Of a DNA stretch of 64,000 nt, positions 2,582 through 28,520 are shown in pieces. The notes beneath the pieces are model-generated. The model did not search any database. It worked only from the letters and a program-made list of their open reading frames with translations, and had not been told where the DNA came from. Position 1 is the first letter of the stretch, and each line of letters starts with the position of its first letter. The position numbers and the translations under genes were made by a program. Origin of the DNA: Ignatzschineria sp. RMDPL8A (GTDB taxonomy: Bacteria; Pseudomonadota; Gammaproteobacteria; Cardiobacteriales; Wohlfahrtiimonadaceae). The stretch is taken from positions 1,488,001-1,552,000 of the forward strand of contig NZ_JAPPWA010000002.1 of the NCBI RefSeq assembly GCF_029815055.1, read 5' to 3'.

Positions 2582-3325
2582 ATGTCATTAAAAACAGTTA
2601 TTATAATTCCTGCTCGATATCAGTCTTCTAGATTGCCCGGAAAGCCTTTAATCGACATTAATGGAAAGCCAATGATTCAGCATGTCGTCGAGGCGGCTCA
2701 TAAAGTAAAAGGTGTTGATGAAGTCTATGTGGCAACAGATGATCAAAGAATATTAGAGGTAGTCGAAGGACTTGGTTATAAAGCCTTGATGACAGATAAA
2801 AATCATCCATCAGGTACTGATCGCTTAATAGAAGTTTCTCAAAAGATAAAAGCAGATATCTATATTAATTTACAAGGTGATGAGCCACTGATTAATGTAG
2901 AGGATGTGGGTAAGTTAGTTACATTAATAAAAAACAACCCAAAAATTGATTGTGCTTCAATGTGTCACCCAATTACAGAGGAAGAGGCAAACAACCCAAA
3001 CTCAGTAAAAGTCGTTTTGGGTAAGGGCAAGAAAGCACTTTATTTCAGTCGCTCTAGAATTCCTTATAAACGTGAAGAAACGGCGCTCCCATATTATAAG
3101 CATATTGGGGTTTATGCCTATCGCTCAAACCTACTAGCCGATTATCCAAAGGTGGAAAATAACTCATTGGAGTTAACAGAATCTCTTGAGCAACTTCGCC
3201 TGTTATCTAACGATGTAGATATTTATATGATGGAAGTTGAGTTTGCTTATCCAGGTGTTGATACAAAAGATGGGTTATTGATGGTAAAAAAAATAATGCA
3301 AAGTAGAGAGGATAACAATGAGTAA
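2582..3325 (+). CDS. kdsB: CMP-Kdo synthetase (3-deoxy-manno-octulosonate cytidylyltransferase)
   Basis: It activates Kdo as CMP-Kdo, the donor for Kdo transferases. The N-terminal nucleotide-binding segment IIPARYQSSRLPGKPL and the later LQGDEPLI motif are diagnostic of KdsB/KpsU. Length (247 residues) is normal. It starts 8 bases after kdsA behind an AGGAAG ribosome site. Its last 8 bases overlap the start of the triple-module glycosyltransferase, so the two are probably translationally coupled. This direct coupling of CMP-Kdo supply to a KpsC-family enzyme supports Kdo as the sugar transferred, but that is an inference. Confidence 0.94.
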   Translation: MSLKTVIIIPARYQSSRLPGKPLIDINGKPMIQHVVEAAHKVKGVDEVYVATDDQRILEVVEGLGYKALMTDKNHPSGTDRLIEVSQKIKADIYINLQGDEPLINVEDVGKLVTLIKNNPKIDCASMCHPITEEEANNPNSVKVVLGKGKKALYFSRSRIPYKREETALPYYKHIGVYAYRSNLLADYPKVENNSLELTESLEQLRLLSNDVDIYMMEVEFAYPGVDTKDGLLMVKKIMQSREDNNE

Positions 3326-6300
3326 AGTGTCGAAATTCTTTTTTAGTCCCAGATTGTTTTTTTATGATGCATGGAAAAATTTTAACAGACGTTTGTTGTT
3401 AAAGAAATCTATTAATAAGACACTTTATTTTTATCGTTTTAATGACTGGAAGAAAACATTTATTAAAGATTTTTTTGTAGAAAGTCATATTGAGTTTTTC
3501 CCTTTTAAAATGACCGCTTCAGAGTTTAGTAATAAGTATGAATCTAAAGTTTTAAAAAATAGTAATGTTGAGATTTTAGTATGGGGAATGAATGCTCCTA
3601 GTTACCTTATACGTTTTTGTAGAAGAAATAATATTCCATTAAAATACGTAGAAGATGGTTTTATTCGTTCCATTGGTCTAGGAGCCGAACATACAATACC
3701 TTTATCTATGGCAATTGATAGTCAGACACTATATTTTAATGCTCAGAAAACATCGGATTTAGAAGAAATCTTATTAACATATGATTTTGATAGTGATTTT
3801 GAGTTATTAGAAAGAGCCCGTACGATGATGAAACGTTTATTGGAGACGGGGATTAGCAAATATAATCAGGGACAGGCAATAGATATTGAAGAGATTTACG
3901 GAGAAAAAAATACAAAACGAGTTTTAGTGATTGGACAAGTTGAGGATGATGCATCTATTAAATATGGGTGTACCCGAAGTTTAACAAATAATGATTTAGT
4001 GCGTATTGCTTATATTGAAAACCCCAATGCTCAGATAATTTATAAGCCACATCCAGATGTGTTGCATCAAAAGCGAAAAATGCAATCAAACCCTAAAGAT
4101 GTGATGCATATTTGTAACGTTTTGGAAGAAGATATATCTTTATCTCAATCATTTGAAACTATAGATCATGTTTATACAATTACTTCTTTAGCAGGTTTTG
4201 AGGCTTTATTAAGAGGAATTAAAGTCACGACACTGGGATGCCCTTTTTATTCAGGGTGGGGGTTAACAGATGATCGTCAAGAGAATGTTAGGCGAACAAG
4301 GGCGTTAACGCTGGAAGAGGTGTTTGCTGGCGCATATTTACTGTATCCTATTTACTTTGATCCAATTTATAAAGTACGAGTTCGTCCAGAAGAAGCATTA
4401 GAGCGATTGATTAGTTTAAAAAATGATACTTTACTAAATACGCCTGTTCAGGCGGAGCCAGTGGAAATTCCAGCTATTAATAAGACACTTTATTTTTATC
4501 GTTTTAATGACTGGAAGAAAACATTTATTAAAGATTTTTTTGTAGAAAGTCATATTGAGTTTTTCCCTTTTAAAATGACCGCTTCAGAGTTTAGTAATAA
4601 GTATGAATCTAAAGTTTTAAAAAATAGTAATGTTGAGATTTTAGTATGGGGAATGAATGCTCCTAGTTACCTTATACGTTTTTGTAGAAGAAATAATATT
4701 CCATTAAAATACGTAGAAGATGGTTTTATTCGTTCCATTGGTCTAGGAGCCGAACATACAATACCTTTATCTATGGCAATTGATAGTCAGACACTATATT
4801 TTAATGCTCAGAAAACATCGGATTTAGAAGAAATCTTATTAACATATGATTTTGATAGTGATTTTGAGTTATTAGAAAGAGCCCGTACGATGATGAAACG
4901 TTTATTGGAGACGGGGATTAGCAAATATAATCAGGGACAGGCAATAGATATTGAAGAGATTTACGGAGAAAAAAATACAAAACGAGTTTTAGTGATTGGA
5001 CAAGTTGAGGATGATGCATCTATTAAATATGGGTGTACCCGAAGTTTAACAAATAATGATTTAGTGCGTATTGCTTATATTGAAAACCCCAATGCTCAGA
5101 TAATTTATAAGCCACATCCAGATGTGTTGCATCAAAAGCGAAAAATGCAATCAAACCCTAAAGATGTGATGCATATTTGTAACGTTTTGGAAGAAGATAT
5201 ATCTTTATCTCAATCATTTGAAACTATAGATCATGTTTATACAATTACTTCTTTAGCAGGTTTTGAGGCTTTATTAAGAGGAATTAAAGTCACGACACTG
5301 GGATGCCCTTTTTATTCAGGGTGGGGGTTAACAGATGATCGTCAAGAGAATGTTAGGCGAACAAGGGCGTTAACGCTGGAAGAGGTGTTTGCTGGCGCAT
5401 ATTTACTGTATCCTATTTACTTTGATCCAATTTATAAAGTACGAGTTCGTCCAGAAGAAGCATTAGAGCGATTGATTAGTTTAAAAAATGATACTTTACT
5501 AAATACGCCTGTTCAGGCGGAGCCAGTGGAAATTCCAGCTATTAATAAGACACTTTATTTTTATCGTTTTAATGACTGGAAGAAAACATTTATTAAAGAT
5601 TTTTTTGTAGAAAGTCATATTGAGTTTTTCCCTTTTAAAATGACCGCTTCAGAGTTTAGTAATAAGTATGAATCTAAAGTTTTAAAAAATAGTAATGTTG
5701 AGATTTTAGTATGGGGAATGAATGCTCCTAGTTACCTTATACGTTTTTGTAGAAGAAATAATATTCCATTAAAATACGTAGAAGATGGTTTTATTCGTTC
5801 CATTGGTCTAGGAGCCGAACATACAATACCTTTATCTATGGCAATTGATAGTCAGACACTATATTTTAATGCTCAGAAAACATCGGATTTAGAAGAAATC
5901 TTATTAACATATGATTTTGATAGTGATTTTGAGTTATTAGAAAGAGCCCGTACGATGATGAAACGTTTATTGGAGACGGGGATTAGCAAATATAATCAGG
6001 GACAGGCAATAGATATTGAAGAGATTTACGGAGAAAAAAATACAAAACGAGTTTTAGTGATTGGACAAGTTGAGGATGATGCATCTATTAAATATGGGTG
6101 TACCCGAAGTTTAACAAATAATGATTTAGTGCGTATTGCTTATATTGAAAACCCCAATGCTCAGATAATTTATAAGCCACATCCAGATGTGTTGCATCAA
6201 AAGCGAAAAATGCAATCAAACCCTAAAGATGTGATGCATATTTGTAACGTTTTGGAAGAAGATATATCTTTATCTCAATCATTTGAAACTATAGATCATG

Positions 6301-6689
6301 TTTATACAATTACTTCTTTAGCAGGTTTTGAGGCTTTATTAAGAGGAATTAAAGTCACGACACTGGGATGCCCTTTTTATTCAGGGTGGGGGTTAACAGA
6401 TGATCGTCAAGAGAATGTTAGGCGAACAAGGGCGTTAACGCTGGAAGAGGTGTTTGCTGGCGCATATTTACTGTATCCTATTTACTTTGATCCAATTTAT
6501 AAAGTACGAGTTCGTCCAGAAGAAGCATTAGAGCGATTGATTAGTTTAAAAAATGATACTTTACTAAATACGCCTGTTCAGGCGGAGAGTAATATCGATG
6601 TAGACACGATTGATATAAAAGACCATTTTATATTACTAAATCGAAATAGCATGCCTAAAAATTATTGTTATCAATATAAATTCGACTAG
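3318..6689 (+). CDS. Triple-module KpsC/KpsS-family capsule glycosyltransferase with three identical tandem modules
   Basis: This 1123-residue protein consists of a 31-residue lead peptide (FFFSPRLFFYDAWKNF, probably an amphipathic membrane-association segment), three copies of one 355-residue module (residues about 32-386, 387-741 and 742-1090) and a 33-residue tail. Each module carries the hallmarks of the capsule-synthesis (PF05159) family: EDGFIRS, QVEDDASI, YKPHPDV, GFEALL and PFYSGWG. These match the C-terminal half of KpsC (the beta-2,7-Kdo transferase, GT107-like) better than its N-terminal half. It is translationally overlapped with kdsB. The likely role is transfer of Kdo or a related sugar in capsule assembly at the cytoplasmic membrane. 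No family member I recall has three such modules. Linkage and acceptor are unknown, and an assembly artefact cannot be excluded. Confidence 0.85.
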   Translation: MSKVSKFFFSPRLFFYDAWKNFNRRLLLKKSINKTLYFYRFNDWKKTFIKDFFVESHIEFFPFKMTASEFSNKYESKVLKNSNVEILVWGMNAPSYLIRFCRRNNIPLKYVEDGFIRSIGLGAEHTIPLSMAIDSQTLYFNAQKTSDLEEILLTYDFDSDFELLERARTMMKRLLETGISKYNQGQAIDIEEIYGEKNTKRVLVIGQVEDDASIKYGCTRSLTNNDLVRIAYIENPNAQIIYKPHPDVLHQKRKMQSNPKDVMHICNVLEEDISLSQSFETIDHVYTITSLAGFEALLRGIKVTTLGCPFYSGWGLTDDRQENVRRTRALTLEEVFAGAYLLYPIYFDPIYKVRVRPEEALERLISLKNDTLLNTPVQAEPVEIPAINKTLYFYRFNDWKKTFIKDFFVESHIEFFPFKMTASEFSNKYESKVLKNSNVEILVWGMNAPSYLIRFCRRNNIPLKYVEDGFIRSIGLGAEHTIPLSMAIDSQTLYFNAQKTSDLEEILLTYDFDSDFELLERARTMMKRLLETGISKYNQGQAIDIEEIYGEKNTKRVLVIGQVEDDASIKYGCTRSLTNNDLVRIAYIENPNAQIIYKPHPDVLHQKRKMQSNPKDVMHICNVLEEDISLSQSFETIDHVYTITSLAGFEALLRGIKVTTLGCPFYSGWGLTDDRQENVRRTRALTLEEVFAGAYLLYPIYFDPIYKVRVRPEEALERLISLKNDTLLNTPVQAEPVEIPAINKTLYFYRFNDWKKTFIKDFFVESHIEFFPFKMTASEFSNKYESKVLKNSNVEILVWGMNAPSYLIRFCRRNNIPLKYVEDGFIRSIGLGAEHTIPLSMAIDSQTLYFNAQKTSDLEEILLTYDFDSDFELLERARTMMKRLLETGISKYNQGQAIDIEEIYGEKNTKRVLVIGQVEDDASIKYGCTRSLTNNDLVRIAYIENPNAQIIYKPHPDVLHQKRKMQSNPKDVMHICNVLEEDISLSQSFETIDHVYTITSLAGFEALLRGIKVTTLGCPFYSGWGLTDDRQENVRRTRALTLEEVFAGAYLLYPIYFDPIYKVRVRPEEALERLISLKNDTLLNTPVQAESNIDVDTIDIKDHFILLNRNSMPKNYCYQYKFD
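3409..4473 (+). repeat. Tandem coding repeat, copy 1 of 3 (1065-bp unit)
   Basis: First of three head-to-tail copies with a 1065-base period (355 codons, frame preserving). By eye it is base-for-base identical to copy 2 over its full length. The final 16 bases (4458-4473) form the inter-module linker, which is absent after the last copy. Confidence 0.95.
4474..5538 (+). repeat. Tandem coding repeat, copy 2 of 3 (1065-bp unit)
   Basis: The second full-length copy begins exactly 1065 bases after copy 1, with no difference seen by eye. It also ends with the 16-base linker (5523-5538). Confidence 0.95.
5539..6587 (+). repeat. Tandem coding repeat, copy 3 of 3 (1049 bp, lacks 16-bp linker)
   Basis: The third copy is identical to the others up to 6587, where the sequence diverges into the unique C-terminal tail. 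The 16-base linker present at the end of copies 1 and 2 is replaced. Confidence 0.95.
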
Positions 6690-6730: not shown

Positions 6731-7333
6731 ATGGAGATCGGTAACTTTAAGATAAAAGGAAATATATCAGATAACCATTTTTCAGTTTCTACTATAGAAA
6801 CTAAGGGGTTAAATGAAATACATTTTTGGAGGAAATCTGAAAATAACACCTTGATAATTGAGGAAGGTTGTAGTTTTAACAAATTAAAAATTGTTTTTAA
6901 AGGTAATAATAACAAATTGATTATTGGTGCTAATGTTCGTTGGACTGGTCATATACTAGTTGTCGGGAACAACCGTCTAGTTACTATTGGGGAGGGGACT
7001 ACCGCGCAAGGAGTATATATTTTAAGTAGAGATGAAGACGTGATTATTGGGAAAAATTGTATGTTTTCTAGGGAAATTGAAATCAGATCCACAGACGTGC
7101 ATAAAATTTATGATTTAGATACAGGAGAAAGAATTAATCCTGCAAAAAAAGTTATTATTGGAGATAACGTATGGATCGGAGCAAGAGTTATAGTCTCTAA
7201 AGGAGCAAATATTCCCAATGGGTGTGTTATAGGTGCATCATCATTTGTTAATAAAAAATTTGAGACATGTAATGTCATCATTGCAGGAACACCTGCGAAA
7301 GTAGTTAAAAATAATATAATATGGGAAAGGTAA
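6731..7333 (+). CDS. Left-handed beta-helix O-acetyltransferase, capsule-associated
   Basis: This 200-residue protein has irregular hexapeptide repeats through its middle and C-terminal half (IIEEGC, LIIGANV, VTIGEGT, VIIGKNC, VIIGDNVWIG, VIGASSFV). They end in the family's usual IIAGTPAKVVK signature near residues 184-194. Proteins of this shape transfer acetyl groups from acetyl-CoA to sugars. It sits between two capsule glycosyltransferases, behind a GAGGG ribosome site, and its last 13 bases overlap the next gene. The likely job is O-acetylation of the capsule or of a capsule precursor. A serine or virginiamycin-type acetyltransferase is the alternative, but the context argues against it. 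The region is strongly AT-rich, as is the rest of the variable cassette. Confidence 0.85.
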   Translation: MEIGNFKIKGNISDNHFSVSTIETKGLNEIHFWRKSENNTLIIEEGCSFNKLKIVFKGNNNKLIIGANVRWTGHILVVGNNRLVTIGEGTTAQGVYILSRDEDVIIGKNCMFSREIEIRSTDVHKIYDLDTGERINPAKKVIIGDNVWIGARVIVSKGANIPNGCVIGASSFVNKKFETCNVIIAGTPAKVVKNNIIWER

Positions 7334-8463
7334 GTTTTATTAAATTAAATGGTGTAAAAAACAAGCTTAAAAAATTTTTTAATAATCCTAAACAATATTT
7401 TTATGACGGATTGCAAAGGTTTTTGAACAAACGATTTAGTAATGCGTATAAAAATTGCAACAAACCAGCACTATATTTGTACCACTTTAGTTACTGGAAA
7501 AGAGATTTTTTACAAGATTGGTATCCTAATAATTCTTTAGAATTCTTGCCATTTTATCTATCAGAAAAAAAATTTTTACGGGTTTTTGCTTCAAAAATCT
7601 TAAAAGATTCAGGGGATGGATTTTTAATCTGGGGAATGAATGCTCCAGATTACTTATTAAAGTTTTTATTAGAAAATAATATTCCATACTACTATGTTGA
7701 GGATGGCTTTTTACGCTCTAAAAAACTAGGTATAGAATATGTCGCTCCAGCATCCTTAATTTTTGACAGGACAACTCTATATTTTGATGCTACTAAAGAA
7801 TCTGATCTTGAAAAAATGTTATTGAGTTATGATTTTAAAGAAGATACTCAATTATTAAAAGCTTCCAGAGCTTTAATTGATTTTTTAATAGAAAAGGGTG
7901 TTAGTAAATATAATCAAGGGATTAATAGCGGTGTTGATTTAATATACGGTGAAAAGTCTCAAAAACGGGTATTAGTCCTTGGACAAGTTGAGCATGATGC
8001 ATCCATAAAGTATGGATGTATAGAACCAATTACTAATCAGCAATTGCTGGAAGTGGCGATAACAGAAAATCCTAACGCTCAAATTATTTACAAGCCTCAT
8101 CCAGACGTGTTGAAAAAAAATAAACAGTTTTCTAGTGGTAGTTTAGCTAACAATATTACAATTTTGACTGAAAATATCGCATTATCAGAAGCATTTAAAA
8201 CTATAGATCATGTATATACGATTACATCTTTGTCAGGACTTGAGGCACTCATGAGAGATATTAAAGTTACTACCTTAGGCTGCCCTTTTTATTCCGGTTG
8301 GGGATTAACGGATGATAGGCAAATTAATGACCGTAGAGATAGGCAATTATCAATAGAAGAGTTAGTGGCTGTGGCATATATACTTTATCCGAAGTATTTT
8401 CATCCTTATATGAAAGAATATACAACTGCCGAAAAAATAGCACATTTTTTATATAGTTGTTAA
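7321..8463 (+). CDS. Single-module KpsC/KpsS-family capsule glycosyltransferase
   Basis: This 380-residue paralogue of one module of the 3318-6689 protein shares EDGFLRS, QVEHDASIKYGC, YKPHPDV, SGLEALM and PFYSGWGLTDDRQ. It has the same N-terminal layout (FFNNPKQYFYDGLQRF), interpreted as a membrane-association helix. It resembles the C-terminal half of KpsC more than KpsS. Its ATG overlaps the acetyltransferase stop region by 13 bases, and kpsC begins 2 bases after its stop, so it is part of a tightly packed operon. It shows what the neighbouring gene would look like with one module (about 413 residues). Probably a beta-Kdo or related transferase; acceptor unknown. It could alternatively fill the KpsS role, since no clear kpsS is in the window. 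Confidence 0.82.
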   Translation: MGKVSFIKLNGVKNKLKKFFNNPKQYFYDGLQRFLNKRFSNAYKNCNKPALYLYHFSYWKRDFLQDWYPNNSLEFLPFYLSEKKFLRVFASKILKDSGDGFLIWGMNAPDYLLKFLLENNIPYYYVEDGFLRSKKLGIEYVAPASLIFDRTTLYFDATKESDLEKMLLSYDFKEDTQLLKASRALIDFLIEKGVSKYNQGINSGVDLIYGEKSQKRVLVLGQVEHDASIKYGCIEPITNQQLLEVAITENPNAQIIYKPHPDVLKKNKQFSSGSLANNITILTENIALSEAFKTIDHVYTITSLSGLEALMRDIKVTTLGCPFYSGWGLTDDRQINDRRDRQLSIEELVAVAYILYPKYFHPYMKEYTTAEKIAHFLYSC

Positions 8464-8465
8464 TT

Positions 8466-10505
8466 ATGTTTAATAGAGTAAAATTCTCTAGTTATAAGCT
8501 GTGGTTGAATAGAAAATATTTATCATTATTTCAATTAGCTGGTATTATTGGCTGGGGCAACAAACCCAATACGGCTAAAGCTCGGGCGTATGCTAAAAAA
8601 CACCATCTTCCATATATCTCTTTGGAAGATGGCTTTCTGCGTTCGGTGGGATTGGGGGTGGAAGGGTATCCGCCACTGTCGCTTGTGGTGGATGATCTGG
8701 GGATCTATTATGATGCCTCGAAACCGTCGCGCCTTGAAAATTTAATATTAGATAATGGTGCGTTAGAGCCATTTTTAGAGGATGCAAAGCGGGCGATCGC
8801 GCTCATTACAGAGCATCATCTTTCTAAATATAATCATGTTAAAGCAGGGTGGCCAGCGCATCTTGAAATAGATGAGAGTAAAAAACAGGTTTTAGTGATT
8901 GATCAAACTGCCGGTGATATGGCGCTCGTTTATGGCGGTGTGACACCGGAAACGTTTGAGGCAATGCTCACCGCCGCAAAAGCGGAAAATCCGGAGGCTG
9001 ATATCTGGGTGAAAATTCATCCGGATGTATTAGCGGGAAAGAAAAAAGGGCATCTGACGGGGCTGTTGGATGGGGATAATATCCGAATATTATCTGAGAA
9101 TATTAATCCAATCTCGCTATTGGAAAAGATGGATCGGGTCTACACGGCAACCTCACAAATGGGGTTTGAGGCATTAATGCTTGGTAAAGAGGTGGTGACA
9201 TTTGGGCTCTCTTGGTATGCCGGATGGGGGATTACCGATGATCGTCATGCTAAGATTCAGGCGTTACAGCAGGCGGAAAGGCGTAAGGATCGAACATTGG
9301 AAGAGCTCTTTGCCGCCGCTTATTTGCGCTATTGCCGTTACCTAAATCCTTTTACGAAAGAGCGAGGCGATATTTTTGATCTGCTTAAATACTTTGTCAT
9401 GGCGAAAGAGCGAGCCATCTTGCTTGAAGGTGAGATTTTATGCGTCGGGCTCTCTTGGTGGAAAAAGCGCATCATAAAGCCATTTCTTACAACGTATAAT
9501 AATAAGGTTCACTTTTTTAAGACGCTTAAAGCCTGTGAGCTTTATTCTCAAAACCATCCTAAGCCCAACGAGCTAAAAGTGATGATCTGGGGGCAGAAGT
9601 ATCCGCAGGTTGCGAAGTGGGCAACGGAGGTGGGAATCCCACTTTTACGCATGGAAGATGGGTTTATTCGGTCAGTTGGATTGGGGTCTAATCTGGTGCC
9701 TCCATTGTCGCTTGTGATTGATGATCGTGGGATCTATTTTGATGCTCGTACGCCATCTCGTTTAGAAGATCTATTGCAACACCACAGCTTCAATGATGCA
9801 GAATTAGAGATGGCCGATTGTTTAATCAGCAATCTTATTGAGAAACATATTGGTAAATACAATGTGGGCAGTGGGGGGGTTACGTTGCCAAACCCTCGGC
9901 CTGAGACGGTTATTTTAATTCCTGGGCAAGTGGAAGAGGATGCCTCAATTCGATTTGGTTCAGAAAGGATTAAAACCAATCTCGAGCTTGTCCAAGCGGT
10001 GCGTAAGGAAAATCCGAAAGCCTATCTTATCTATAAACCCCATCCAGATGTTGTCAGCGGGAATCGTAAAGCGATTACGACGATTGAAGATGCGAGAAAA
10101 TATGTGGATGATGTGGTGATTCATGCGGATATTCTGAGCTGTATTCAAGCGGTGGATGAGGTACATACGATGACATCTCTCTCTGGATTTGAAGCATTGT
10201 TACGTAAAAAGAAGGTGACCTGTTATGGAGCACCATTTTATTCTGGCTGGGGATTAACGACGGATAAACAGCTCGTTAATCGGCGTACGCGAACCCTCAC
10301 ATTAGCGGAATTAGTCGCTGGTAGTATGCTTTTATATCCTACTTATATTAATCCTGAAACGGGAGAATTAATGGATGCATTAACGGCGTTAACCATTTTG
10401 GAGGCGATGCGTAAAGAGCGCCATTCTGAGATTAAAACCCATTGGTTAGAGCGAAAGTGGAATCAATTACGAGCACTCTATCGAGTATATCGGCATTCGC
10501 GATAA
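8466..10505 (+). CDS. kpsC: Bifunctional beta-Kdo transferase of the capsule lipid anchor (KpsC)
   Basis: KpsC extends the oligo-Kdo linker on phosphatidylglycerol with alternating beta-2,4 and beta-2,7 Kdo before capsule export. Two modules are visible. The N-terminal one (about residues 25-330) has LEDGFLRSVGLG, VIDQTAGDMALVYGG, KIHPDV and YAGWGITDDR. The C-terminal one (about 380-650) has MEDGFIRSVGLGS, PGQVEEDASIRFGS, YKPHPDV and PFYSGWGLT. An in-frame TTG lies at 8457, but ATG at 8466 is preferred. The first 30 or so codons are AT-rich and the protein starts about 25 residues shorter than my recollection of the E. coli protein. From about 8560 the base composition rises, which looks like the right edge of the variable cassette. 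Confidence 0.92.
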   Translation: MFNRVKFSSYKLWLNRKYLSLFQLAGIIGWGNKPNTAKARAYAKKHHLPYISLEDGFLRSVGLGVEGYPPLSLVVDDLGIYYDASKPSRLENLILDNGALEPFLEDAKRAIALITEHHLSKYNHVKAGWPAHLEIDESKKQVLVIDQTAGDMALVYGGVTPETFEAMLTAAKAENPEADIWVKIHPDVLAGKKKGHLTGLLDGDNIRILSENINPISLLEKMDRVYTATSQMGFEALMLGKEVVTFGLSWYAGWGITDDRHAKIQALQQAERRKDRTLEELFAAAYLRYCRYLNPFTKERGDIFDLLKYFVMAKERAILLEGEILCVGLSWWKKRIIKPFLTTYNNKVHFFKTLKACELYSQNHPKPNELKVMIWGQKYPQVAKWATEVGIPLLRMEDGFIRSVGLGSNLVPPLSLVIDDRGIYFDARTPSRLEDLLQHHSFNDAELEMADCLISNLIEKHIGKYNVGSGGVTLPNPRPETVILIPGQVEEDASIRFGSERIKTNLELVQAVRKENPKAYLIYKPHPDVVSGNRKAITTIEDARKYVDDVVIHADILSCIQAVDEVHTMTSLSGFEALLRKKKVTCYGAPFYSGWGLTTDKQLVNRRTRTLTLAELVAGSMLLYPTYINPETGELMDALTALTILEAMRKERHSEIKTHWLERKWNQLRALYRVYRHSR

Positions 10506-18389: not shown

Positions 18390-21503
<3,114 letters not shown>

Positions 21504-21524
21504 ATATTTTTAAATCAACTTACG

Positions 21525-21548
21525 GGAGAGCTTCGGCTCTCCTTTTTT
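21525..21548 (+). terminator. Rho-independent terminator after pilY1 paralogue A
   Basis: A perfect 7-bp stem GGAGAGC/GCTCTCC with a TTCG tetraloop is followed by T6. Confidence 0.95.
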
Positions 21549-21708
21549 ATTGTCGTTTTTTGATTGACGATGATATCCCATCGAATTGATCCATGTTGAC
21601 GTTAAGTTTTGTAATGATGCTATATTATTTGTATATATTTGTAATTATTCGACATTAGCATGATCTTTCATGCGATATGTTTATTTAGTTCACTTTTACG
21701 GAGAAATA

Positions 21709-24700
21709 ATGAAAAAACAGCTTTCCCTTCTTGTGAGTGCCCTGCTCTTATCTAATGCAAGCTTTGCATTTACGCCCCACCAAGAGCCTTTAGTGAAACA
21801 AAATCCGCCAAAACCCAATATCTTAATGGTTCTCGATACCTCAGGATCGATGAATGCTGTCGATATGTCTGATGCAAAAGGTAATAAAATAACGCGGATT
21901 GCTGCTTTAAAATCTACAGTAGTGAATTTACTAGCACGTTATCGATACGATGCCAACATTGGCTTTACAACCCTTGGCCCAACGGGATATCAGGAAGCGA
22001 GCACAACAAATGCAATGTCTTCTGTAAGTTTTAATATTTTAAAGATGCCAATTCAGGATTTGAGCAACCCTAATAATTATGAATCAGCCGTTAATTTAAT
22101 CAAACATAAGTTTACCATCCCGCCTCGCACAGAATACCGCCAAACACCGATTGCATTTGGGATTTATGAGGCGGCCAAAGTGTTTCGCGGAGAGCCGTTA
22201 TTGCAGTCAATCAAGGCCGAGCGTCGTTATAGGGTTGGTCTTGGCATATTGAGTCCAAAATATAAAATTATTCCTGCAGAATACTCTTTTAATCGCGTGC
22301 AAGATTCACCGATCCAATATCGTTGCCAAGAGCAACATATGATTCTTATGACGGATGGTGACCCTATGAATGACGCGGTTGGCCCTATTTTATCTCGAGA
22401 TAAAGGCAAATTAAATCATAACGAGACCGATTACCGTAAGGTAACAAAATTACTTTGGAACATTGACCTCATTAAAGATGCTTCAAACTTAACGCTGAAA
22501 GATAGCGCGAATAAATTTTGGAATGCGAAAGGAGCGACTCGTTTACCAATTTATTTTAATGCCATTGGATTCAGCGGTGACGTAAGTGATGCGTCGAGTA
22601 ATAAACTTAAGCAAGCGGTAAGTTATAGTGATGGAACCTACGTTCATGCTTATGATACAAAACAACTCAATAAAGCCTTTCACGATATTTTTCAAAGCAT
22701 TATTCAGACCCGAAGTGGAACCGGTGCGATTCAAGACCAGCAGGCGCAATCGAAAAATTCCCTTCGTTATTCAAGTAGCTATGAGCCCCGCGTTTGGACC
22801 GGTGCTATAGTGGCGCGTTCTTATAATAGTGACACGGGTAAATTCGATACCATCAAATGGGATACTCGCGACAGGATTAAACCCAATCAAGGTCAGTTTT
22901 ATACCGCTAAAAAAGGGAATAAAAAGAGCACTGGACAGCTTGAAAAAGTGGCGCTTAAAAAGGCCAATATTAACGCACAATATGTTAGCTGGCTTCAAGG
23001 AAATGAGCGTCTCGATAAATTTCGCGACCGTCAAGGCAATACGCTCGGAGCCATTATCCACTCGGATCTTACCTATATGGCAAACGATATTCCCTATGTC
23101 AATCTCAGTTCATTGAGTCCTTCCGTGCAGGATGAATTTTTCAATTACGCCATGCTTCGCCGTGACAAAATGCATCATAATCTCTTAATTGCCGGCACAA
23201 ACGATGTGCCTTATTAATTTTATCTACGCCGATAAATCAAGTATTGGGAATCATCCCCGTGCGGGCGAGCGTTATGTGAGTTATTTCCCATCATTTTTTA
23301 AAGATGAGCTCGATGACATTACCGAATTTTACTACAATCACAGCTATAAAGTGGATGGAAAAACCCATATTTTTGATGCGCTCCACCAAGAGGTATTTCG
23401 TACAATCGGGATTACCTCAATGGGCGCCGGCGCGAAAGCATTAGTGGGCTATCAGCTCTTTGAAGCGCCAAGACATACCGAACGGACTTCTCGTTATGCA
23501 TCAGGCGTATCATCTGAGTTTCAGATCAATTTTGAGATTACCAATCAAACCAAAGGGTTTGAAAATTTAGGCTATACCTATTCTGAGATCGACTTTTTTA
23601 ACCCAAAAACCCCCGTCGAAAATCGAGCCGTGGCTGTGTTTGGGAATGGATTTGGCAATCAAGTATCGTCAATCCTTCTGATTGATGCGGTGACTGGCCA
23701 AAAAATCAATGAGATTATCTTATCTGATGAAGGTCTTGGCGCGGCTTCTCCGGCCCTTGTGGTTGATCGGGATCCGGATACCGGCTTTCAAATTTTAAGT
23801 AAGCTCTACGTCGGCGATTACAGTGGTGATCTTTATAAATTAAGTTTCAATCCTGCATCCACGAATTTTTCCGATGTAAAAAAGGTGAAACTGTTTAGTA
23901 CAGGATCGAGCGATCAGCCGATTACTGTTCGTCCCATCATCAATCGCGATAAAAGTGAAACCATGTGGCTCTATTTTGGTAGCGGTAGTGCCATGACGCT
24001 CGATGATATTGCTAAAGAGGCTCTTAATGTTACGCACTACTTCTACGGCATTAAAGATCTTAATGAGCAGATTAAAAAGGATGATCTACTCAAACAGGAG
24101 ATTACTAAAGTGGAGGGTGATGGTGAGCGTAAAGTGCTCTATACGTCGATGAATGGAGATAGTCCTGCGGAAAAAGGTTGGTCAATTTCCCTCTCACATC
24201 CGAGAAATGCTGCCGGCGAACGGGTGATCTTCCCTGCTGTCTTTATTGGGAATAAATACTTAAGTCTTGCGACTTGGTCCATTATCCCCGGCGCTAAAAA
24301 CGACCCCTGCCTTGCTGATAAAAGTACCGGATCAAAAATGTATCTTGATCTTTACAATGGCAACGCCGGTAAAATTATTGTTAAAACCGATAAGAATGGT
24401 AAAAAAGTAACCGACAATGATGGCAATCGTATATTAGAAGACAATAATGGTTCGCATTTAGAGGATGACGCCTATGGTCGCCCGACGGGAGATTACGTCA
24501 CGGCCTATAATATCTATGGTGGCTCGTATACGCATAATCCGGTCTACAATCGAGACCAACGCACTGGCCAATCACGGATCTCCAAACGTTTTGAATCAAC
24601 CGTGAAGATGGAGCATTTTAATACGCTTCTTTTAACCAAAGAGTACCACGAGCAAGAGATTCTCGGGGCACAAAGCGATACCGAGAAAGGGAATACCGAA

Positions 24701-24787
24701 ACCGACCTGCTCTCTCTTTTCGATATTTATAGTGGTGAGGAGTTACGTAACCATTCAGGTCGTCTTTACATTAAGTCAAGACTCTAA
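21709..24787 (+). pseudogene. PilY1-like paralogue B, interrupted by a 1-base frameshift
   Basis: Two overlapping frames (21709-23217 and a +1-shifted one to 24787) together encode one PilY1-like protein. The first has the signal peptide (MKKQLSLL...ASFAF), VWA domain (DTSGSM) and LMTDGDP, and stops right after AGTNDVPY. The second resumes with LINFIYADKS and carries LGYTYSEIDFF, FGNGFGNQ, YVGDYSGDLYK and the usual end GRLYIKSRL. In paralogues A and C the same place reads NDGLINFI without interruption. Removing the T at 23207 restores the frame and gives about 1025 residues, matching the others. Translation should start at 21709 (GGAGA site), not the upstream in-frame ATG at 21670. It could be a real pseudogene, a switched-off variant or a sequencing error. 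Confidence 0.85.
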
Positions 24788-24831
24788 CCTCATTTAAAAA
24801 ATAAGAAATCGCTCAAAAATAGCTAATATAG

Positions 24832-24863
24832 GCTCTATCAAGAGATTCGTGATAGAGCTTTTT
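24832..24863 (+). terminator. Rho-independent terminator after pilY1 paralogue B
   Basis: A 9-bp perfect stem GCTCTATCA/TGATAGAGC with a 9-base loop is followed by T5 and a further T-rich stretch. Confidence 0.9.
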
Positions 24864-25187
24864 GTTTTGTATCTCACTCATTTATAAAAAAGTGTTAACA
24901 AATATTAAATTGTATACTAAACTCCTGTAGTCAAAATCAACCGGAATGAGCACAAAAAAGGCTTATTCCAACAGAAAAACTTGCTAAAGTAGCGTCGAAT
25001 TTACATTTCTAAACTGATTAATTATTTTCATAATCAGCTGAAAGCATTGAGATAGGCGCTTTTTGGCCACAAAACTAACATTGAGTTTCCTGCATTAAAT
25101 CAATATATGAATCTGCGTTTGTGGCATATATAATGTCAATTTATGTTAAGATCTGTAACTAATTTATAGAGTTGTGAGTAGAATAGA
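24864..25187. other. Leader region of pilY1 paralogue C
   Basis: About 320 AT-rich bases without a supported gene. An 8-bp inverted repeat (GCCACAAA at 25066-25073, TTTGTGGC at 25118-25125) lies within the last 125 bases before the start codon, and TATAAT-like sequence follows it. Promoter assignment is not secure. Confidence 0.4.
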
Positions 25188-28100
25188 ATGAAAAAACGAT
25201 TATCTTTAGCTCTTGGGACCGCCCTATTAATGTCCCAATTTGGCTTTGCGCAAGAATCCACAGGATTTAAGCCACACCATGAGCCACTGATTAAACAAAA
25301 TCCGCCTAAGCCTAATATCTTAATGATTCTCGATACGTCAGGATCGATGCGAGAATACGATATGGGAGTTCCTTGTGAAAATGGTTATCCAGGCGAGATG
25401 TGTAGTGATAGCAGAATTAATGTTTTAAGAAGCACGGTTGATAGGTTATTAGCTCGGTATCGTAATGATGCGTATCTTGGCATTTCGACATTAGGAAAAT
25501 TTGGGTATCACATTGATCCAAGATTCGGTTATCGAAATGATTTAAATATTATTAAACATGATTTAAGTGACCTTAGTACATCCGATGATCCAAGAATAAA
25601 TACTGAAAATGCTGCGAAGCTTAGATCAATTCAGAATACGGTGAAAGGACTACAAGCAAACGGAGGAACGCCGTTGGCCTTTGCCCTATATGAAGCAGCA
25701 AAGTATTTCCGAGGTGACAAGTTATTAAAAGAAACAAATTATAAATATAGCTGGAATGATGGACGTTATGCGCACTTTGATAGTTTTATAGGTGTTAAAC
25801 CATCGCCTATAAAGTATCGTTGTCAGGCACAGCATATTGTCCTATTAACTGATGGTGACCCAGATGTTGACCAGGTAGGGCAAATATTGCCACGTGATAA
25901 GTCTGCATTACAGAGACTGTCTAATTTAAATTCGGTGAGAAATAGAGCCGCTGTACGTCGGGCTGAAATTGAAAGGATTGCTAGGAGTAATCCCAGAAAT
26001 CAAATCATACAAAGATACTATCAGACAGTACTAACACAAGATCGATACAATGGATCAGACTATTTGGGTAACTTTTCAACCTCGTTTATTGCACAGCATT
26101 TGTGGAATTTAGATCTTAGAACAGATACTCAAAATCTTGCCACTAAAGACAATGCTGGAAAAGGATGGCTGGATGAGGGATCGGTAAGAATGCCGATTTA
26201 TGTTAATGCGATCACATTTGGGGATGATACTAACTCTACGTCTAAAAAAGAGTTGGATTTAACGGTTGCTCCAAGTGGTGGTGTTCACGTTCATGCCAAA
26301 AACCCAAAACAGCTTGATGACGCATTTAATGATATTTTCCAAAGCATTATTCAAACACGAAGTGGTACGGGAGCGGTAGAAGACCAAAATGCTCAAACGC
26401 TCAATACCATTCGTTATACAACAAGTTATGAGCCCCGTGTTTGGACCGGCGCCATTGTTGCTAGACGATATGACAGTAAAACCGGTAAGTTTTCTATTCC
26501 TGTGTGGGACACCAAAGAGCGTATTAAACCTGGACAAGGCAAGCTTTATACCGCAGAAATTCAAAATAGAAATGTGATAACTAAAGAGTTAACGGAAGGT
26601 AAATGGATCGTAGAGAATGATCGCAGAGGCCGTCCAAAAAAGCCTTTTTGGGTTAATGGATATTACGGTGCATTGGGCGAGCAATATGTACGTTGGCTTA
26701 AAGGCTATGATGATCCTGAGTTAAGAGATCGTCAAGGCAATACGCTAGGTGCGATTATTAACTCGGATATCTACCATTTTTCGTCAGACATGCCAAATGT
26801 AAATATTAATGAAACGGTGGTAGGAAAAGCGCACCGCGATAACATCATTAAATATGTAAAAAAACGTCGCGATACAATGGGGATCAACTACCTTATCACT
26901 GGCTCTAATGATGGACTGATTAACTTTATCGTGGCTGAAAAAACTGACTCAAGTAAACGCTCAGAATTACCAGGAACACGTATTTTTAGCTATTTCCCAT
27001 CATTTTTTAAAGATGACTTAGCTGATATTACGAGCGTGCCTTATTCGCATCAATATAAAGTCGATGGAACAACGCATTTCTTTGATGCTTTAGTCGATGA
27101 TCATTATCGCACAATTGGTATTACATCGATGGGATCCGGTGCAAGAGCATTGGTGGGTTATCAAGTTTTTGAAAGCGATAGCGAATTCAAAAAGACCTCG
27201 GATGATTTTAAAATTAATTTTGAAATCACCAATAAAACGGCAGGATTTGAAAACTTAGGCTATACCTATTCAGAAGTTGATTACGTTAATCAAGCTAAAG
27301 ATGATAAGCATTCCCGCGCTGTTGCTGTGTTTGGAAATGGTTTTGGTGCGCCTTCTAAAGTATCGTCCATTTATATGATTGATGCAATAACCGGGCAAAA
27401 GATCGAAGAAATTGTTTTATCGAATAATGGCCTAGGTGCGGCATCACCATCGTTATTAGTCTCAAAAGATCCTGTTACAAAGATGCAACGCTTAGAGTCG
27501 ATCTATGTCGGCGATTATAGTGGCAATATGTACAAAATCGTATTTGACTATACCGCTTCTGACAAAGAAGGAAGCTATAACTTTAAACATTATTCCAAAC
27601 AAACAATCTTCCAAAGCGGCGGCTCAACAAGACCGATCACAACTCGTCCAGTTGTGATGAAGAACAAAAAAGATAATGATCAGGTTTGGGTCTATTTTGG
27701 TACAGGAAGCGCAAAAACAGCGAATGATATCTCCGAGAAAGCATTAAATGCTCAACACTATTTTTATGGTATCAAAGATATCAATGAGACCATTGAAGAT
27801 GGGCAGTTGATTGAGCAGAAAGTGGAAAAAACGTTTGGTACTGGAAAAGAGCGCCAACTTCTTACCTCAAAAGCAGTGGATGGTGCGACGACACCCTATG
27901 GTTGGAAATTAAAGCTCACGCATCGTTCAGATGAAAATAACGAGCGAGTGATCCGCCCTGCTGTATTGGTGGGTAACAAATATATTACCTTTGCAACCTG
28001 GTCGATTGTTCGTGGTGGCGCAAACGATCCTTGCTTAAGTGACAACTTAGTGGGCTCTGAATTTACTTTAGATCTCTATACCGGAAATGCAGGAACTATT

Positions 28101-28520
28101 TTCTGGGAGACCAATCCTGATGGAAGCCTTAAAGGTATCGATAAAGATGGTCAAGGAGAGCCCATTCGCGCCAAATATAATGGTGAACATCTTGATGATG
28201 ACGCGTTTGGTCGTCCTACCGGTGAGGGAATTATTCCTCATAACATCTATGGCGGTAACTACTATTATGGCTTCATCGAGGAACTCGCTTCATCTGATGG
28301 TTATTATGTAGATCTCTCCAAAGACTCTGGCAATCAGTCAGGTATGGCTATTGGTGGTGCTACAATCAGTGGCAAAAATGGTGGTAAATTCTCTTCAATG
28401 TCATCGACAACCGAAGGTGGTAAACAGAAGAATAAACTGATTCTTCAAGATGATATCTGGGAATCAGAAGATGAATTAATCAGCGGCAAACGTCTCTACA
28501 TTAAACAAAGAGCTATTTAA
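25188..28520 (+). CDS. PilY1-like type IV pilus tip protein, paralogue C
   Basis: The intact 1110-residue member has a signal peptide (about 1-21), a VWA domain (MIDAS DTSGSM near residue 49, LLTDGDP later) and the PilY1 propeller. Propeller motifs are LGYTYSEVDY, AVFGNGFG, IDAITGQKI and YVGDYSGNMYK. It ends RLYIKQRAI. Relative to A and B it has an extra charged, arginine-rich insertion in the VWA half (around residues 240-285, with RRAEIERIARSNP). Expected location is the pilus tip or outer surface, exported through the type IV pilus apparatus. It has its own leader and terminator, so it may be expressed independently of A and B. Confidence 0.87.
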   Translation: MKKRLSLALGTALLMSQFGFAQESTGFKPHHEPLIKQNPPKPNILMILDTSGSMREYDMGVPCENGYPGEMCSDSRINVLRSTVDRLLARYRNDAYLGISTLGKFGYHIDPRFGYRNDLNIIKHDLSDLSTSDDPRINTENAAKLRSIQNTVKGLQANGGTPLAFALYEAAKYFRGDKLLKETNYKYSWNDGRYAHFDSFIGVKPSPIKYRCQAQHIVLLTDGDPDVDQVGQILPRDKSALQRLSNLNSVRNRAAVRRAEIERIARSNPRNQIIQRYYQTVLTQDRYNGSDYLGNFSTSFIAQHLWNLDLRTDTQNLATKDNAGKGWLDEGSVRMPIYVNAITFGDDTNSTSKKELDLTVAPSGGVHVHAKNPKQLDDAFNDIFQSIIQTRSGTGAVEDQNAQTLNTIRYTTSYEPRVWTGAIVARRYDSKTGKFSIPVWDTKERIKPGQGKLYTAEIQNRNVITKELTEGKWIVENDRRGRPKKPFWVNGYYGALGEQYVRWLKGYDDPELRDRQGNTLGAIINSDIYHFSSDMPNVNINETVVGKAHRDNIIKYVKKRRDTMGINYLITGSNDGLINFIVAEKTDSSKRSELPGTRIFSYFPSFFKDDLADITSVPYSHQYKVDGTTHFFDALVDDHYRTIGITSMGSGARALVGYQVFESDSEFKKTSDDFKINFEITNKTAGFENLGYTYSEVDYVNQAKDDKHSRAVAVFGNGFGAPSKVSSIYMIDAITGQKIEEIVLSNNGLGAASPSLLVSKDPVTKMQRLESIYVGDYSGNMYKIVFDYTASDKEGSYNFKHYSKQTIFQSGGSTRPITTRPVVMKNKKDNDQVWVYFGTGSAKTANDISEKALNAQHYFYGIKDINETIEDGQLIEQKVEKTFGTGKERQLLTSKAVDGATTPYGWKLKLTHRSDENNERVIRPAVLVGNKYITFATWSIVRGGANDPCLSDNLVGSEFTLDLYTGNAGTIFWETNPDGSLKGIDKDGQGEPIRAKYNGEHLDDDAFGRPTGEGIIPHNIYGGNYYYGFIEELASSDGYYVDLSKDSGNQSGMAIGGATISGKNGGKFSSMSSTTEGGKQKNKLILQDDIWESEDELISGKRLYIKQRAI

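Follow-up and report, generated by a model that had tools for sequence, protein, structure and literature searches.

A probable capsule Kdo polymerase with three identical GT107-type modules in one reading frame

A capsule locus of Ignatzschineria sp. RMDPL8A contains a gene in which the same kilobase of DNA appears three times in one open frame. This raises the question of what such a gene encodes, how the repeat arose and whether the number of modules matters to the capsule. The gene lies in a 64-kb stretch of DNA, the whole of which was analysed and is referred to here as the window. The gene order of the locus is kpsS, kpsE, kpsD, kpsM, kpsT, kdsD, kdsA, kdsB, the array gene, an acetyltransferase gene, a single-module paralogue of the repeated unit and kpsC. 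The first four genes are just upstream of the window and were named by sequence and gene order, kpsS also by its PF05159 match. The genes of this locus that lie within the window are:

25-684, + strand: kpsT, capsule export ATPase
768-1721, + strand: kdsD/kpsF-like gene, which from its sequence and family we take to encode an arabinose-5-phosphate isomerase (Kdo precursor)
1734-2573, + strand: kdsA-like gene, presumably for Kdo-8-phosphate synthase, named on the same grounds
2582-3325, + strand: kdsB/kpsU, CMP-Kdo synthetase
3318-6689, + strand: array gene, predicted three-module retaining beta-Kdo transferase (GT107-type) and probable capsule polymerase, from PF05159 and the KpsC structures
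6731-7333, + strand: hexapeptide-repeat acyltransferase (WbbJ-like), probable O-acetyltransferase
7321-8463, + strand: paralogue with one module, 55% identical to the repeated unit
8457-10505, + strand: kpsC, with two different beta-Kdo transferase modules (linker synthesis)

The GC content of the middle part of the locus is 30-33%, against 42% for the window. Low GC is usual for serotype-specific capsule genes. Relatives of the module in other genomes also often adjoin kdsD/A/B, kps export genes and acetyltransferase genes.

The array gene is a single open frame of 1123 residues. When the whole window was compared with itself, a shift of 1065 bases gave 0 mismatches across 2114 consecutive bases, and this unbroken match places the array at 3409-6587, or 2.985 copies of a 1065-base period. 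The three-fold 1065-base tandem repeat in one 1123-residue frame that was described in the initial annotation is therefore present, with a third copy of 1049 bases. An exact match of this length rules out chance or low complexity as the origin of the array. No second repeat of 40 bases or more was found in the 64-kb window. The parts of the array gene are:

3318-3413, + strand: N-terminal segment MSKVSKFFFSPRLFFYDAWKNFNRRLLLKKSI, residues 1-32, ahead of the first module and unrepeated save for its final bases
3409-4473, + strand: repeat copy 1, 1065 bases
4474-5538, + strand: repeat copy 2, 1065 bases
5539-6587, + strand: repeat copy 3, 1049 bases, with the last 16 missing
4458-4473 and 5523-5538, + strand: junction linker CCAGTGGAAATTCCAG, present at both internal junctions and at neither outer flank

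The 355 residues encoded by copies 1 and 2 are identical, and copy 3 encodes the first 349 of them, which leaves about 30 N-terminal and about 33 C-terminal residues outside the repeat. The linker does not occur again in the window, even with up to three mismatches allowed. A protein search of the genome matched only the three units, the open reading frame (ORF) at 7321-8463 and kpsC. With 0 differences at 2114 sites, the divergence between copies is below about 0.14% (95% limit), and we accept the earlier argument that identity at the base level reflects recent amplification or homogenisation.

Two other features of the window were noted. Three consecutive PilY1-like genes occupy 18390-28520. 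The middle one lies in two frames, 21670-23217 and 23189-24787, and so looks interrupted. A perfect (TGA)12 tract at 21356-21391, near the 3' end of the first of these genes, is read as a run of aspartates, the length of which would be altered in frame by triplet slippage.

The family to which the repeated unit belongs is indicated by domain, fold and active site. A Pfam search found PF05159 in three stretches of the 1123-residue protein. Weak matches to other Pfam and NCBIfam families (RuvC, FabI, beta-lactamase and others) were rejected as spurious sums over the repeat, with no significant single stretch. Among solved structures, KpsC modules are the best sequence matches, the top one being the beta-2,7-Kdo transferase 6mgd. 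A structure model of residues 1-413, for which 22 relatives were used, has a mean pLDDT of 81; it is confident for the module itself (about residues 33-370) but not for the first 30 residues or the linker. The best fold match of this model is again 6mgd (E 1.4e-27, TM 0.87 over the target), with the KpsC 2,4 module next and WbbB and KrkA far behind.

The active site of KpsC includes Trp42, Glu66, Asp67, Lys133, a QxxxD motif and a His (PMC10148158). Alignment and spacing map these residues to W89, E112, D113, K181, Q207-x3-D211 and H245 of the unit, all of which are invariant in 23 of 23 aligned proteins. The unit thus combines PF05159 and the KpsC fold with the QxxxD motif, the Glu-Asp pair, and the Trp, Lys and His of a GT107-type retaining beta-Kdo transferase. 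From this fold and these catalytic residues we infer that each module is such an enzyme, predicted to transfer Kdo from CMP-Kdo, and since the three copies are identical, three active modules would be expected. The earlier assignment to the KpsC/KpsS family, with three whole catalytic modules in frame, agrees with the three PF05159 stretches and the KpsC fold.

A tree of 70 modules falls into three groups with strong support: KpsC-N, KpsC-C and, as the third, a clade of 37 rows (support 100/99). The third clade, whose members are probable Kdo polymerases, branches beside KpsC-C, the beta-2,7-Kdo module, and not within it. It also holds single-module proteins of rhizobia and modules of Salinicola, Amphritea and Bacillus. 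A duplicate of the KpsC modules is ruled out as the source of the array, as the unit lies outside both KpsC clades (100/99) and the locus has a separate kpsC. The unit also lacks the pairing of one N-type and one C-type module that defines KpsC proper. Within the third clade the unit and ORF 7321-8463 form a sister pair (99/87). This pairing points to two duplications, an old one that separated ORF 7321 from the unit and another, very recent, that made the array. ORF 7321-8463 keeps the Kdo-transferase motifs of the unit and starts with a segment similar to the N-terminus of the array protein. Matches to the module were also seen in Klebsiella, Enterobacter, Escherichia and Citrobacter plasmids; these are probably kpsC-type capsule genes carried on plasmids.

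Relatives with one module are the norm in this family. Chains with several modules are found in Salinicola lusitanus (1429 residues), Amphritea atlantica (1559), Salinicola salarius (1113), Salinicola aestuarinus (1143) and Bacillus sp. J37 (1111). Each has two or three modules, which are 30-54% identical within a chain in pairwise alignments of the cut-out modules. No 20-base word is common to the modules of any one of these chains, and blast of the chains against themselves gave no off-diagonal matches. In the Bacillus sp. J37 chain the middle module is without QxxxD and the third groups with KpsC-N. The initial annotation considered the arrangement to be unknown. This does not hold for several modules in one chain, which occur in Salinicola, Amphritea and Bacillus, but it does hold for identical modules, which were seen only here. 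A comparison of copy number in related genomes, also suggested there, yielded no comparable array among 57 relatives, nor was there one in 369 genomes of the class or 398 of the phylum at the cut-offs used (a strict 1e-70 for class and phylum). Identical and, by their motifs, active modules in series were thus seen only here among the 32 loci and the genomes searched. No case of glycosyltransferase modules duplicated in frame turned up in a literature search.

Some of the loci with relatives deserve mention in their own right. Bacillus sp. J37, which is filed as Gram-positive, has kpsS-, kdsB-, kdsA- and kdsD-like genes beside its three-module chain (locus L038, 4639-16070), together with a one-module chain and two acetyltransferase-like genes, in a layout much like that of the window. 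In the complete genome of Rhizobium sp. RCAM05350 two loci (L039 and L041) each have a relative of the module that is split over two overlapping frames, possibly through sequencing errors or because these are pseudogenes.

The array could be real but transient, a neutral duplication fixed by chance in one strain whose capsule is the same as with a single module. We regard this as a serious possibility. Zero differences between copies fit a very young event, no comparable gene was found in the relatives, class and phylum at the cut-offs used, and single-module relatives predominate; since the rhizobial relatives manage with one module, having three may make no difference. On the other hand, the junctions are in frame, the catalytic motifs are intact in all copies, and multi-module chains recur in other lineages, a hint that having several modules can be of benefit. 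Even with a neutral array the region would still be a probable poly-Kdo capsule locus, and the third, polymerase-like clade of GT107-type modules would stand.

A different concern is whether the count of three is correct. The genome, of 2.18 Mb, is in three contigs, one of which (5631 bases) is a lone rRNA operon whose 23S gene is followed by a 5S gene broken by the contig end. A separate rRNA contig, of the kind seen when an assembly leaves repeats unresolved, suggests that repeats of about 5.6 kb were not resolved, and this makes the exact count of three less secure. The true count might then be two, or some other number, with the assembler having written three identical copies from a looped graph; copies that derive from a single graph path cannot differ. 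We think this rather unlikely. The 16-base linker CCAGTGGAAATTCCAG is found between copies, and nowhere else in the window including the outer flanks, so the unit must be present at least twice, with one or more genuine junctions between copies, and the array is not an artefact of joining its two flanks. The array is also in frame, and the contig continues into unique sequence on both sides. We are therefore confident that the genome carries at least two copies of the unit, and a count of exactly three is likely. Both the exact count and the perfect identity are read from the assembly and could partly reflect the writing out of a loop. The two tuf genes are resolved in the assembly, but their longest common exact run is only 89 bases, so they are uninformative on this point. 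The two other contigs have a 66-base stretch in common near one end.

What the array gene would make is suggested by the locus and by a rhizobial relative. The repeat, the intact catalytic residues of each module, the third-clade position and the Kdo-only gene set are read directly from the sequence. The likely interpretation is that the array protein is a retaining beta-Kdo transferase which builds a group-2-type capsule by polymerising Kdo from CMP-Kdo, that this capsule is probably an O-acetylated Kdo homopolymer, and that in-frame amplification of a single module took place recently. In Sinorhizobium meliloti 1021 a single-module gene on pSymB (611859-612896) is 53-54% identical to the unit over about 340 residues and sits among homologues of kpsE, kpsT, kpsM and kdsD. 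The capsule of this strain has been reported to be a beta-(2-7)-linked Kdo homopolymer (PMC5539429; PMC4881576). The S. meliloti gene may be taken by analogy as a putative poly-Kdo polymerase, and the array gene resembles it in both its close homology (53-54%) and its Kdo-only locus. The clade position and the S. meliloti case together suggest a 2-7 linkage for the Kdo polymer.

Many capsule enzymes of the GT107 or GT99 type produce heteropolymers that contain Kdo, for example Ribf-Kdo in E. coli (PMC13171606). The polymer might likewise be a mixed repeat to which this enzyme adds Kdo. The other sugar could then come from a transferase whose gene lies outside the locus, or from ORF 7321 if it uses another donor. 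We consider a mixed repeat unlikely. No further recognised glycosyltransferase was found in the locus besides the array gene, ORF 7321-8463 and kpsC/kpsS, ORF 7321 keeps its Kdo-transferase motifs, and the capsule reported for S. meliloti 1021 is a homopolymer (PMC5539429).

For the proposed Kdo homopolymer we suggest the following mechanism. A single catalytic module of about 340 residues would have been amplified by recent tandem duplication in frame, giving a protein whose one N-terminal segment is followed by three copies of the same active site on short, probably flexible linkers. The N-terminal segment is a possible membrane or complex anchor, in view of the similar start of ORF 7321. 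A covalent Asp-Kdo intermediate has been established for KpsC (PMC10148158), and each module would form such an intermediate and then add its Kdo to the end of the growing chain. With three sites close to one anchor, local addition could be faster or the chain could be retained for longer.

Homologous recombination between identical direct repeats of 1 kb is expected to add or remove whole modules. The initial annotation had proposed contraction or expansion by whole modules without a frameshift, and removal of one or two periods does leave open frames of 768 and 413 residues; the existence of single-module relatives indicates that one module can suffice. Tuning of chain length by module number is plausible. 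That module number acts as a recombination-variable control of capsule length or amount in a population is improbable in our estimation: perfect direct repeats on the kilobase scale, with a period divisible by three and contraction products that stay open, are in its favour, but the array is known from one genome, without a variant or a linked phenotype. It is likewise doubtful that a recombination-adjustable number of identical modules behind one anchor makes cells of one population differ in the processivity, length or amount of Kdo polymer. If it were so, recombination would change the enzyme by whole catalytic domains without loss of the gene. A polymerase set apart from its single-module relatives chiefly by how many identical active sites it has would also lend itself to asking how ABC-exported capsules set their chain length, since one, two or three such sites on a chain could be compared.

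The array protein can be compared with several known systems. KpsC (GT107, dual-module; PDB 6mgd, 6mgb, 6mgc and 8fux) has the same fold, catalytic residues, kps locus and expected CMP-Kdo chemistry, but its two modules are different (clades N and C) and build a short linker, whereas the window enzyme has one third-clade module three times. E. coli K6, which has a GT29-GT107 protein, gave signals consistent with poly-Kdo (PMC13171606). In that protein too a GT107-type module has been proposed to make a Kdo homopolymer, but a GT29 domain is attached and identical repeats were not reported (PMC13171606). KrkA (GT140) of E. coli K13 is the retaining Kdo transferase of a capsule polymerase and functions as a trimer; it belongs to another sequence family, its trimer is formed from separate chains and a ribosyltransferase is attached (PMC12887879). 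The chains of Salinicola, Amphritea and Bacillus also have two or three superfamily modules and adjoin Kdo genes, but the modules are diverged and some chains have an added GT29-like part. Further counterparts are the single-module transferase of S. meliloti 1021 and its rhizobial relatives, with 53-54% identity, kps and kds neighbours and a strain with reported poly-Kdo, and they have one module where the window enzyme has three.
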